A DNA stretch of 64,000 nucleotides, taken from assembly GCA_021768705.1 (NCBI GenBank), contig JAETUG010000001.1, forward strand, positions 1-64,000, written 5' to 3'. Positions 1 to 11,204 of this stretch are shown one piece after another. The notes below the pieces were generated by a model. It had not been told where the DNA came from. It worked only from the letters and a program-made list of their open reading frames with translations, and searched no databases. Both the position numbers and the translations under genes were made by a program. Source of the DNA: Bacillota bacterium (GTDB lineage: Bacteria; Bacillota; Clostridia; Lachnospirales; Anaerotignaceae). Every line of letters begins with the position of its first letter. Position 1 is the first letter of the stretch.

Positions 1-488
1 ATGAGAGAAAGGAGAGGGGCGGGTACGACGTTTGTAGCATCATATTTGCCTCCAAGTCCGACCTCTAAAACCAATATATCCACCTTCTGTTCGGAGAAAT
101 AATGAAATGCCGCACCGGTGACGATCTCAAAAAGGGTAGGCACGGGCTTGCCCTCTGCTGACAGTTCCTCGCAGATTTCCTTCATCAAAGTGATCTCTTT
201 AGCAAAATCACCATCGGAGATTTCCACATCATTTATGAGAAAACGTTCGTTATAGCGTTCCAAATGGGGGGAGGTATACGTTCCGACGCGGTATCCTGCT
301 TCTTTCAGGATGGAGGCAAGCATGGCAACAGCAGAACCTTTCCCGTTGGTCCCTGCAATATGAATAATAGGAAGCCTCTGTTCGGGGTTTCCCAGCTTTT
401 CACAAAGTAATTCTATACGTTCCAGCCCAGGTACAGAACCAAAGCCGACTTCTTTTTCTAAATAATGGATACACTCTTGATAATTCAC
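1..488 (-). CDS. folC: Bifunctional folylpolyglutamate/dihydrofolate synthase, N-terminal part (cut by window edge)
   Basis: FolC adds glutamate to folates (and to dihydropteroate in bifunctional forms) in the cytoplasm. About 162 N-terminal residues are present. I see the ATP-binding P-loop HIAGTNGKGS, the following TYTSPHLERYNERF region, and LEVGLGGKYDATNV, all typical of the Mur-ligase-like FolC family. The start is GTG at 488-486, preceded by a GAGAGGAGAA ribosome binding site at the right distance, which gives the usual family N-terminus (VNYQECIHYLEKE). The frame stays open to position 1, so the C-terminal two thirds lie outside. It is divergent from mltG. Whether it has dihydrofolate synthase activity cannot be judged from this fragment. 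Confidence 0.93.
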   Translation of the reverse strand, partial: MNYQECIHYLEKEVGFGSVPGLERIELLCEKLGNPEQRLPIIHIAGTNGKGSAVAMLASILKEAGYRVGTYTSPHLERYNERFLINDVEISDGDFAKEITLMKEICEELSAEGKPVPTLFEIVTGAAFHYFSEQKVDILVLEVGLGGKYDATNVVPAPLLSL

Positions 489-5309: not shown

Positions 5310-5495
5310 GGAGTACACCTCCGATCAAGGGGATATTTTATTTTATGGGAAAGATTTGCTATTTGTGCGTGTCTGAATGAAAGATTTTGTGTCCAAAATC
5401 CTTCAGGTGTGTCGAAGAAGGCAGGAAGTTGCGGTGGAAAGAGACAAAAAACAGGTATTTTATCAGGTATTATTTTGGAAAAGGAGGAATTTTTT

Positions 5496-5855
5496 ATGGA
5501 ACTGAAATTCAAACGGAAAAATAAAACACTCATCATACAAATATCAGGAGAGATCGACCATCATACTGCTGCAGAACTGCGTCGTCAGACGGAAAGTGCC
5601 CTGGAACAAATGGGCGGACGAAACATTATCTTTGGCTTTCAGGAGGTCACTTTCATGGATAGTTCTGGTATCGGCGTAATGATCGGGAGATACAAACAGA
5701 TTCAGTCTTTGGGCGGACGCATCGCCATTGCCTGTCCCAACGAAAAAATAGAGGAAATCATTCGTCTTTCGGGGTTATCCCGTTTACTACCATCTTTCCC
5801 GACCCTGAACGAAGCCATTGCCTATGCAGAAGGGAGGGAAAGTGATGCAGTTTGA
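5496..5855 (+). CDS. spoIIAA: Anti-sigma F factor antagonist SpoIIAA
   Basis: This 119-residue STAS-domain protein frees sigma-F by binding SpoIIAB once SpoIIE has dephosphorylated it. The phosphoacceptor motif FMDSSGIGVMIGRYK is clear; Ser56 aligns with Ser58 of the B. subtilis protein. ATG 5496 follows AAAGGAGGAA. It is the first gene of the classic three-gene spoIIA operon and overlaps spoIIAB by 11 bases, fitting the need for matched protein amounts. The 180 bases shared with divergent sigK should hold a sigma-H promoter, but I found no convincing match. Confidence 0.95.
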   Translation: MELKFKRKNKTLIIQISGEIDHHTAAELRRQTESALEQMGGRNIIFGFQEVTFMDSSGIGVMIGRYKQIQSLGGRIAIACPNEKIEEIIRLSGLSRLLPSFPTLNEAIAYAEGRESDAV

Positions 5856-6273
5856 TAATGAAGCCCGCGTTTTTTTCAGCGCAAAATCGGAAAATGAAAG
5901 CTTTGCCCGTTTGTTTGCCGCAGGCTTTCTGACACAATTAGACCCCACCATTTCCGAACTGACAGATGTAAAAACAGCTGTTTCCGAAGCGGTCACAAAT
6001 GCCATCATCCATGGGTATGAAAACAAAACGGGCATAGTGGAGCTATTCTGCGGTTATGTGGGAAAGCATATTTACATAGAGGTGGCAGATAAAGGCAAGG
6101 GGATCGAAAACGTAGAACAGGCGCGAGAGCCTCTTTATACCTCCAAGCCTGAGATGGAACGTTCCGGCATGGGCTTTACCATTATGGAAACCTTTATGGA
6201 AAATGTCCGCATCGAAAGCATCGTAGGGGAAGGTACCCGCATCTTCATGGAAAAGACCCTTGCAAAGGAGTGA
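5845..6273 (+). CDS. spoIIAB: Anti-sigma F factor / serine kinase SpoIIAB
   Basis: A GHKL-fold kinase (142 residues) that binds sigma-F and phosphorylates SpoIIAA. The N box AVSEAVTNAIIHGYEN, the G1 box EVADKGKGI and the G2 region ERSGMGFTIMETFM form the ATP site. The start at 5845 follows GGGAGGGA inside the end of spoIIAA. An in-frame upstream ATG lies within spoIIAA coding sequence and lacks this spacing. Forespore-specific release of sigma-F depends on the balance of this protein with its two operon neighbours. Confidence 0.95.
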   Translation: MQFDNEARVFFSAKSENESFARLFAAGFLTQLDPTISELTDVKTAVSEAVTNAIIHGYENKTGIVELFCGYVGKHIYIEVADKGKGIENVEQAREPLYTSKPEMERSGMGFTIMETFMENVRIESIVGEGTRIFMEKTLAKE

Positions 6274-6277
6274 TTCC

Positions 6278-6991
6278 ATGGAGCATATCTATGAGTGCAT
6301 CAGAAGGGCCCAGGCAGGGGATGCAGCAGCCAAAGACCAATTGCTGCAGGAAAATTCCGGTCTCATCTGGAGCGTTGTACGGCGTTTTAACGGCCGTGGA
6401 GAGCAGGAGGACTTATATCAGATCGGTGCCATCGGCCTTCTGAAATGTATCGAAAAATTCGACTTTAGCTATGACGTAAAATTTTCCACATACGCAGTTC
6501 CCATGATTATGGGCGAGATCAAACGGTTTCTCAGGGATGACGGGACGGTGAAGGTCAGCCGCAGTCTGAAGGAACTTTCTTATCGTGCGAAAAAACTGCA
6601 GGAAAAAGCATTAAAAGAGGAAAACAATGAATTGACTTTGCAAGAAATGGCAAACATGCTGGAAGTGGAAAAAGAAGAACTGCTCTTGGCATTGGAATCG
6701 GGGCGAGAAGTGGAAAGTCTCTATGCCGCTCAGGGAGGAAATGGCGGAGATACACCGCTGCAACTGATCGATAAACTGGCAGATACCACTGAAAATGAAA
6801 AAATGATGGAACGGCTTTCCTTAATGGAAGCCTTAGAGCATCTGGATGCGAAAGAGAGACAGATCATTACCATGCGATATTTTCAGGACAGGACACAATC
6901 AGATGTGGCAAAGTGCATCGGCATCTCTCAGGTACAGGTCTCCCGTATCGAAAAGCGGGTGCTGTCCCAGATGCGGGAAGCATTGGAATGA
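6278..6991 (+). CDS. sigF: RNA polymerase sporulation sigma factor sigma-F
   Basis: Sigma-F (237 residues) starts forespore gene expression. Region 2 reads EDLYQIGAIGLLKCIEKF and FSTYAVPMIMGEIKRFLRDD, region 3 RSLKELSYRAKKLQEKA, and region 4 GISQVQVSRIEKRVL. The ATG at 6278 follows AAAGGAG, which overlaps the end of spoIIAB; four bases separate the two genes. Sigma-F is closely related to sigma-G, but linkage to spoIIAA and spoIIAB fixes the identity. A strong hairpin follows 12 bases after the stop. Confidence 0.96.
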   Translation: MEHIYECIRRAQAGDAAAKDQLLQENSGLIWSVVRRFNGRGEQEDLYQIGAIGLLKCIEKFDFSYDVKFSTYAVPMIMGEIKRFLRDDGTVKVSRSLKELSYRAKKLQEKALKEENNELTLQEMANMLEVEKEELLLALESGREVESLYAAQGGNGGDTPLQLIDKLADTTENEKMMERLSLMEALEHLDAKERQIITMRYFQDRTQSDVAKCIGISQVQVSRIEKRVLSQMREALE

Positions 6992-7064: not shown

Positions 7065-7910
7065 TCAGTAACACTGCAAGATCAGCCAAACACGGTCAAA
7101 GCGGCGGGCGTGCAAATCTTCCTTGCGGATATAGAAATAAATTCTTCCGCAGTCACCAAACATCAACTCAAATTCTTTATGTGTAATCGTGTCTAGCTGG
7201 AATAGAAGCAGCCACTGGTCTAAAGAATTCTTTTTGGCAGACTCCCGTTCTTCTATAGGAACATCTTCCCAAAGACCGCCCAGATCATAGCCTTTGCTTA
7301 CCAATTCACATTCTGTAGTCATATTATTTTGAATGATATCAGGCCAGCCCAGAAGCTTCGAAGAGATTTCGGGCAAATCATAGCCCATCATGGCTTTTTC
7401 TTCATAGAATTGGTCATATTCATCGACGAGTTCACTTTCCTTCAGTTCAAAATCGGCCCAATCCGGAAAGGAGTTTTTTGCGTTTAGCTTGATTCCTACC
7501 TGGGGAAAGCAGTATTCTTTTGGTAAATCTGCAGGAAGCTCTGCGGCAGAAAGGGAAGATACATCCTCAAACTAATAGACCTTTGCACAGCCCTTGTCCT
7601 TTGGATCAAAGCCCCAACATTCAGCAGTCGTTATATGGAAAAAGGAGAGCAGCCCTGTTTTAGGCAAGAGATTATCCTTATTATATTCTGCTAATTCCGC
7701 ACAGTTGAATTGAGCGAGGAAATGCAGGGGACGATTTTTGATTTCATCGTCATAAAAAGTGGCTGTTTCAAAAACAGGCCAAACAAAGTCTTTCGGTACA
7801 TCCGGTACACCGCCGAAACGTGTGCCGCCGGTTTGATAAGAGATATCACCGCTGATGTCCAGGCTGATTTCGTTTTTCATCATTTTTTTCAGCTTTTTTT
7901 CAAAATACAT
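7065..7910 (-). pseudogene. DUF1963 (YwqG-like) protein split by one in-frame TAG
   Basis: The frame is open for 281 codons, the usual YwqG length, except for TAG at 7574-7572. The first part (from ATG 7910, after AAAGGAGG) contains TRFGGVPDVPKDFVWP and PLHFLAQFNCAEL, typical of the family's N-terminal half. After the stop, the same frame continues as FEDVSSLSAAELPADLP and runs to CGRIYFYIRKEDL and the end. Nothing else is lost, so this looks like one recent point mutation (VY-stop-FED, probably once a Tyr codon). The function of DUF1963 proteins is unknown. It lies 20 bases downstream of a zinc-ribbon gene, so the two were probably co-transcribed. A sequencing error or natural readthrough is the alternative. 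Confidence 0.85.
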
Positions 7911-7930
7911 ATCCGTTCCTCCTTTGTCTT

Positions 7931-8302
7931 TTATAGCTTTCTGCCACACTTGGGGCAGTATTCATATTCGGGAGTCAAAAGATATCCGCAGTTGGGGCAG
8001 TTGTTGGTTCTGCTGCTGTCCATCCCAACGATCGTTAAATCTTCTTCCCGCAGTGTCACAGTTTCTCCCCGTTCGATAGAGCGTCCCATCTCCTGATCGA
8101 TGGCATAAACGGTATTACAGCAATTGGAAACAGCGTAATATTTTTTGCCCCACTTGAAAAGGGGGATGAAGAAAAAACTGAAATAGGTATAAACCATAAA
8201 AACAGAAATACTGCTGTAGCGTCCGCATTTTTTGCAGATCATCGTTTGGCGAAAGAAATCAAAGTCTTTTCTGCCTTGGGCGATCCCACCAATAAATATC
8301 AT
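7931..8302 (-). CDS. Zinc-ribbon domain protein with a hydrophobic stretch
   Basis: A 123-residue protein of a small family seen in Firmicutes; the function is unknown. It starts MIFIGGIAQG, then has CKKCG (Cys23/26), an aromatic hydrophobic stretch at about 34-51 (VFMVYTYFSFFFIPLF) that may associate with membrane, a Cys-Cys pair near 59, and a C-terminal ribbon of CPNCG and CPKCG (Cys102/105/116/119). The four C-terminal cysteines are a standard zinc site. It is upstream of the broken DUF1963 gene on the same strand. The start is the first ATG of the frame; no strong ribosome binding site is visible. Confidence 0.75.
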   Translation of the reverse strand: MIFIGGIAQGRKDFDFFRQTMICKKCGRYSSISVFMVYTYFSFFFIPLFKWGKKYYAVSNCCNTVYAIDQEMGRSIERGETVTLREEDLTIVGMDSSRTNNCPNCGYLLTPEYEYCPKCGRKL

Positions 8303-8340
8303 AAAAACACATCCTTAACATGAAAATTTTGCGAATTCAT

Positions 8341-8369
8341 TTTACAACTACTGGTTAACATGATAAAAT
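8341..8369 (+). promoter_or_regulatory. Promoter for the 33-residue peptide gene
   Basis: TTTACA at 8341-8346, 17 bases, then TAAAAT at 8364-8369 preceded by TG (extended -10). It lies about 45 bases ahead of the small gene's ATG. Confidence 0.6.
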
Positions 8370-8412
8370 AATTCCAAGTGAAAAGCAACTATTTTCCAGA
8401 GGAGGGGAAAAC

Positions 8413-8514
8413 ATGAAAGTATCTCGTTTGGTTGTAAGCGCAGTATCTCTGGCAGTTTCTGCAGCCCTGCTGACGCTGAGCATCATCGATTTGATCCACA
8501 TCGATGAATATTGA
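8413..8514 (+). CDS. 33-residue small membrane peptide, unknown function
   Basis: The translation begins MKVSRLVVSAVSLAVSAALL and ends in an acidic tail, DLIHIDEY. One hydrophobic helix of about 22 residues spans most of it, with positive residues before and negative residues after, so a single membrane segment with the N-terminus inside is likely. Support for a real gene is unusually good for its size: a near-consensus promoter about 45 bases upstream, a strong GGAGGGG site just ahead of the ATG, and a clean stop. It sits alone between the zinc-ribbon gene (opposite strand) and the first GAPDH gene. I do not recognise it. A leftover signal peptide or type I toxin-like peptide are alternatives. 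Confidence 0.6.
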   Translation: MKVSRLVVSAVSLAVSAALLTLSIIDLIHIDEY

Positions 8515-8672
8515 GTTTGAATAAAAAATGAAAAACAGGAAAAACTGTTAGCAGTTATTCCGAAAATCCAAGTGTTTGGCGGGAGAAAAGCAACAATTTG
8601 CATCTATTTCTTTCGCCAAAACTTTTATCCATGTACTTTTTCGGAAAATAGGCAGTTTTTTCTATTTTTTTG

Positions 8673-9788
<1,116 letters not shown>

Positions 9789-9889
9789 TTAGAAGTTTCG
9801 CATAGAAAGGCTTTCGAAAGCATATTCACTGAAACTGCTTGTAGGAGCAGGAAAATAATTGGGACGAAAGCAATTTGCAGAGCAAACAT

Positions 9890-9920
9890 AGCCTTAGATT
9901 CTATGAGTCTAAGGCTTATT
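9890..9920 (+). terminator. Terminator after the first GAPDH gene
   Basis: AGCCTTAGA (9890-9898) and TCTAAGGCT (9908-9916) form a 9-bp stem with a 9-base loop, followed by TATTTTAT. Confidence 0.6.

Positions 9921-11204
<1,284 letters not shown>

Follow-up and report, generated by a model that had tools for sequence, protein, structure and literature searches.

Judging by comparison with its relatives, the plus-strand frame at positions 8413–8514 of the window (the whole 64,000-nt stretch of DNA that was analysed, from an assembly of 1.86 Mb that is 85% complete) is a real gene whose amino-acid sequence is under selection. Its predicted product belongs to a selected, so far unnamed family of about 33 residues, encoded among genes of central metabolism in Anaerotignaceae and in related members of Lachnospirales. 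The full reading favoured here, which joins a genuine peptide gene to a promoter that once served purL and to a single helix packing through a serine face on itself or on a membrane partner, is given a probability of about 0.5. The locus comprises the following features.

7931–8302, minus strand: Zn_ribbon_15 gene (E 1.1e-21), divergent from the promoter and kept on its left side in relatives
8341–8369, plus strand: promoter TTTACA-17-TAAAAT with TG-extended −10 (sequence scan and conservation)
8385–8388, plus strand: GCAA element in the presumed 5′ leader, exactly 15 nt past the −10 box (kept in relatives)
8401–8407, plus strand: ribosome binding site GGAGGGG (sequence; purine-rich GGAGG-like stretches in relatives)
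8413–8514, plus strand: gene for the predicted 33-residue single-pass membrane peptide (frame and comparison)
8570–8624, plus strand: hairpin between the peptide gene and gapA, terminator-like with a weak T run (folding z −4.35)
8673–8700, plus strand: possible own promoter of gapA, TTGTGT-16-TATACT, TG before the −10 and a weak −35 (read by eye)
8781–9788, plus strand: gapA, type I glyceraldehyde-3-phosphate dehydrogenase (GAPDH), the usual 3′ neighbour (family match)

The sequence-only reading had placed a near-consensus extended −10 promoter, a strong ribosome site and a charge-asymmetric hydrophobic helix in an otherwise empty gap between a zinc-ribbon gene and a glycolytic gene. The promoter was recovered with 10 of 12 consensus matches (TTTACA at 8341–8346, a 17-nt spacer, and TAAAAT at 8364–8369 preceded by TG), the GGAGGGG site lies 5 nt ahead of the ATG at 8413, and both neighbours are as described. 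The encoded peptide has one hydrophobic stretch, basic residues K2 and R5, and an acidic tail, DEY. The gap is not wholly empty, as it contains the strong hairpin at 8570–8624. A similar hairpin occurs in three relatives (G003, G007 and G008) with altered stem sequence and retained pairing; the terminator scan made no call at 8570–8624, and the candidate gapA promoter is absent from the promoter-scan list. The bare promoter consensus occurs at 4 sites in the approximately 1.1-kb stretch against 3.0 expected, which is no excess over chance, so that the weight falls on its conservation between genomes. The combination TGATAAAAT-13..17-GCAA occurs twice genome-wide, once at this locus.

Distribution of the gene and selection on its frame

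Relatives of the peptide were found with a 27-member profile in 48 of 58 Anaerotignaceae genomes at E ≤ 3.1e-9, one of them (G029) interrupted by a contig end. The first search, made with a single sequence and a cutoff of E ≤ 1, had picked out 30 of 60 relatives; the match in G057, which sits within a 357-aa frame, was rejected as chance. With a 28-member profile, 71 of 392 genomes of the order had matches at E ≤ 0.01, of which 64 were accepted and 7 were not. The accepted members comprise the 48 in the family and 16 among the other 334 order genomes searched, 15 of which belong to family f12 and the last to f17; for G270 and G586 the deciding point was that gapA comes next. A class-wide sample of 291 genomes contained members only in G000 and G003, both of the same genus, and one further match lay inside a 441-aa frame. 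Three weak profile matches (G112, G204 and G118) were removed before the 62 members with surroundings were counted, the first two having neither gapA nor purL nearby and unrelated surroundings; those in G142, G198, G639, G664 and G666 were likewise not taken as members. On the evidence of these genomes the peptide gene is vertically inherited and unannotated, and it is neither recent nor local, reaching other families of the order.

Selection on the frame was measured over codons 2–26. Within the genus of the window (g1), comparison with six same-genus relatives gave a pN/pS of 0.062, with no second-position change in any of the 6 comparisons and all differences at first or third positions. 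The ratio was 0.076 in g17, 0.078 in g11, 0.23 in g13 and 0.34 in g7; it was 0.74 in g55, a mixed and divergent set. For the entire peptide in g1, including its tail, the value of 0.127 compares with 0.094 for gapA and 0.089 for the zinc-ribbon gene (five genomes). In the remaining frames the ratio is higher or stops are numerous. One antisense frame, that at offset 2, is mostly open (stops in 2 of 39) with a pN/pS of 0.42 and is regarded as a shadow of the sense frame. The test proposed from the sequence, conservation across related Clostridia, was thus run and came out in favour of the gene in the family, in the order and in pN/pS. Frame-breaking substitutions, which had been named as evidence against it, were seen in none of the gene-bearing relatives.

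These ratios bear on the idea that the conserved element is a structured or regulatory RNA in which the frame is incidental. The conserved GCAA element and the hairpin would suit such an RNA, but the pN/pS values speak for the protein, leader and frame fold no better than shuffled sequence (z −0.68), and no Rfam family was found in 8200–10250, where the single match is at chance level and inside gapA. An RNA of this kind is barely conceivable as the explanation.

The pattern of inheritance likewise makes it very unlikely that the peptide is the hydrophobic toxin of a type I toxin–antitoxin pair. Phages and plasmids are frequent carriers of type I toxins, which also often come in multiple copies. 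The peptide resembles them in its size, its single hydrophobic helix and its strong ribosome site, but in G000 and in each of the family genomes listed a single strong copy was found, its position is conserved and its pattern is vertical, phage and plasmid records gave no match at E ≤ 1, and PADLOC gave none beyond chance level. The only antisense promoter-like site close to the gene matches at 9 of 12 positions, and chance alone would be expected to produce sites of this kind.

The gene is absent at a readable locus in five family genomes, and since it is missing there it is dispensable in those genomes. In three of them (G010, G024 and G035) gapA adjoins an apparent zinc-ribbon gene, and in G023 purL and gapA are intact with the peptide missing. 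In G061 (locus L163) the −10 box and GCAA are kept upstream of gapA, whereas the peptide is gone and a −35 cannot be clearly recognised; this is a hint of some further role for the promoter region. Five genomes stand outside this count: G001, G005, G034 and G063, in which gapA of the window type was not found, and G076, which gave no match either and in which the region upstream of gapA is unassembled.

Gene neighbourhood and promoter history

Most members share one neighbourhood. On the same strand, gapA starts at most 700 nt downstream in 57 of 62 members, at a distance from the peptide gene of 24–338 nt (24–33 nt in some), and it also follows in G270 and G586. Within 900 nt upstream lies the end of purL, identified by its match to TIGR01857, in 37 members and the divergent zinc-ribbon gene in 23, with neither in two; beyond purL, where it is present, there is usually a divergent zinc-ribbon gene. 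The five members without a near gapA are G029 (contig end), G304, whose contig runs 1,185 nt past the peptide gene with no gapA, and G031, G073 and G074, in which gapA is located elsewhere and the peptide is still behind purL. A degenerate DNA pattern applied to 52 named loci, which overlap the genomes already counted, found gapA downstream at 44, with 4 too short and 4 without gapA (L111, L137, L140 and L158).

The order purL–gapA is also found without the peptide. Among 28 loci from other families of the order (one with just 201 nt upstream), none had a small membrane frame with a ribosome site before gapA, and purL and gapA were adjacent in 4 of them (G041, G059, G118 and G249), as in G023; the neighbourhood is therefore partly an old gene order. 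At L111, on a metagenome-assembled contig, the peptide gene lies 13 nt behind an HD-domain (hydrolase) gene with neither purL nor gapA beside it, and a terminator-like repeat, read by eye, closes the unit directly behind the peptide; the best GAPDHs of that genome are 48% identical to that of the window. The HD gene has relatives in 36 of the 58 genomes of the family; that of the window's own genome is on a different contig.

Because the peptide is kept without purL as a neighbour, without gapA as a neighbour (three genomes) and once with neither adjoining it, it is an independent gene and not a leader of gapA, and comparative evidence indicates that neither GapA nor PurL is an obligatory partner. 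That it is a leader peptide or upstream frame controlling the expression of gapA, or of purL, accordingly attracts little credence: its place ahead of gapA and the strong hairpin that follows it in the window would fit such a role, but selection acts on its amino acids, the full peptide and its ribosome site are retained away from gapA, and the repeat at L111 comes right after the peptide.

A functional link to GapA, drawn by analogy, in which the peptide would recruit GapA to the membrane or modulate it, much as SR1P acts in Bacillus, is the most daring alternative considered and is unlikely. It draws on the closeness of gapA in most members and on the continued pairing of peptide and gapA after the departure of purL, together with two precedents. 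SR1P, a GapA-binding protein of 39 aa encoded by a dual-function sRNA, is confined to Bacillales according to its authors (PMC8152036). Prli42 of Listeria is a membrane-spanning mini-protein whose cytosolic basic N-terminus tethers a soluble complex, in the Prli42/RsbR stressosome system (PMC6614362). Against the link stand the three genomes with gapA elsewhere, the L111 genome without a gapA of the window type, the five purL–gapA pairs without the peptide, and a cytoplasmic part of about 5 residues, which leaves almost nothing to bind GapA. The likeness to SR1P is that of a short protein with a GapA connection, which for the peptide is one of neighbourhood only; by description the two are set apart, SR1P being a soluble partner of GapA and the peptide a membrane helix beside the chromosomal gapA. 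With Prli42 it shares the predicted form of a membrane mini-protein with a basic N-terminus, but the basic tail of Prli42 is longer and relies on K4, K5 and R8 (PMC6614362), whereas K2 alone is near-invariant in the peptide. The more specific proposal that this family, with its K2 and serine heptad, is a docking or scaffold element that ties GapA (and, ancestrally, PurL), or the flux through these enzymes, to the membrane as a Lachnospirales counterpart of SR1P is rather improbable.

The favoured reading takes the upstream promoter to be older than its present arrangement. Of the 22 Anaerotignum-like genomes in a scan anchored on GCAA, a set that leaves out G026 as being of another genus, all but G002 and G004 carry TTTAC(A/T)-17-TG-N-TAAAAT-like-15-GCAA ahead of the peptide gene (20 of 22). 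A TTTAC-17-extended −10 promoter also stands before purL in every one of the 21 regions from the family and in 2 of the 10 from other families, whereas shuffled sequence would give 0.2 of 31, and some purL promoters have the spacer end of the window promoter, TTAACATGA. PurL is encoded away from the peptide locus in all 17 Anaerotignum-like and g3 genomes; where the gene is unsplit, its product is 56–58% identical to PurL of the locus type, which is itself 66–76% identical within the family and 60–67% identical to PurL at purL–peptide loci in other families.

From these comparisons we infer an ancestral order of divergent zinc-ribbon gene, promoter, purL, peptide gene and gapA. In the Anaerotignum-like clade purL would have been replaced and lost from the locus, with the peptide gene inheriting its promoter. 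As purL has left the locus and the promoter architecture is shared, the promoter at 8341 is most likely the former purL promoter. The gene can thus be called stand-alone, as first read, in the Anaerotignum-like clade, but in most other genera it follows directly behind purL; similarly, the promoter is conserved ahead of the peptide gene to which it had been assigned, but appears to be inherited from purL.

Helix anatomy and candidate partners

Members are 31–38 aa long. The best 19-residue Kyte–Doolittle mean is 2.33 for the window peptide, and the best hydrophobic stretch scores 2.13–2.74 in 62 of 62 members. The predicted monomer structure is a single helix of residues 2–32 (mean pLDDT 89.4), a length that in this model suffices to cross a membrane. 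An alignment of 28 diverse members shows M1 without variation and K2, S9, S16 and S23 at least 90% conserved; in the 42-member set taken from named loci, no variation occurs at M1 or S9, and K2, S16, L20, S23 and I24 reach at least 90%. The three serines are spaced by seven residues, one per two turns, on a common helix face. Their heptad class (positions 9, 16 and 23) has a mean conservation of 0.92 in 22 non-redundant members, a value that the best heptad class attains in 0.4% of 20,000 permutations of positions (p 0.004). Only this class is significant, as general helical periodicity of conservation gave p 0.19 at 100 degrees and 0.054 at 105 degrees.

The N-terminal charge is +1 or +2 in 62 of 62 members. 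The C-terminal tail, by contrast, carries net negative charge in 30 of the 47 members from the family and is basic in 13 of the 14 from elsewhere, a difference that gives no support for one fixed topology; topology may vary among families, and in Anaerotignaceae the K2-bearing N-terminus is most likely on the cytoplasmic side. A basic start, a hydrophobic core and a variable tail of 7–10 residues could also describe a secreted-signal precursor, the helix serving as signal sequence and the tail being released, but conservation lies in the helix and not in the tail, and by eye there is no clear signal-peptidase site and no lipobox, which makes a precursor hardly probable.

In the favoured mechanism the peptide would insert into the cytoplasmic membrane as one helix, its S9–S16–S23 face would pack on a second copy or on one of the helices of some larger membrane protein, and the packing would stabilise or tune that partner, as other small membrane subunits do. 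Serine-zipper transmembrane helices carry serines every seven residues along one face. The peptide resembles them in having a conserved serine at i, i+7 and i+14, a likeness known here from sequence. KdpF, CydX and MgtS each serve a larger membrane protein as subunit or modulator, as AcrZ does with AcrB. With these four the predicted peptide shares a length below 50 residues, a single membrane helix and no detectable catalytic part; unlike them, it has no sequence-family match and no adjoining membrane-protein gene that points to a partner.

For 27 members, Pfam, NCBIfam and PADLOC returned only weak, chance-level matches and no family that fits; PHROGs, searched with three members, gave chance-level matches only, and nothing among PDB sequences matched at E ≤ 10. 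The literature searches made here turned up no paper on the peptide or on small Anaerotignum frames. By these comparisons the peptide constitutes a new protein family within a known class, the small single-pass membrane proteins, to which it is assigned by prediction. Its function is testable because the family occurs in the cultured Anaerotignum lactatifermentans, A. neopropionicum and Clostridium sp. ASF356, and the natural experiments provided by purL loss, gapA displacement, the move to the HD gene and the gene losses yield sharp predictions of dependence.

Other features of the window

At four loci, L085, L087, L088 and L089 (genomes G227, G258, G267 and G109), the peptide is followed by a GAPDH that is only 44–49% identical to that of the window, against 64–76% for GAPDH in the related g55 genomes, so that the four loci carry a different GAPDH type in the same place. 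The window itself has tandem GAPDH genes (8781–9788 and 10187–11204, plus strand) that are approximately 63% identical. Upstream of the second are the palindromes AGGACAAAATACGTCCC (9951) and GGGACGTTTTCCGTCCC (9992), which we take to resemble CggR operators; two such matches arise in 22 of 100 shuffles and are not rare by chance. A CggR-like operator linked to the peptide was considered and rejected, as within the window the GGGAC/GTCCC repeats occur only near the second GAPDH gene.

On the minus strand, a DUF1963 gene is split over two frames at 7065–7949, with profile positions 1–74 in 7572–7916 and 145–216 in 7065–7391, and is probably broken or mis-assembled. Three adjacent plus-strand frames at 5409–6991 are, going by their translations, presumably spoIIAA, spoIIAB and sigF.
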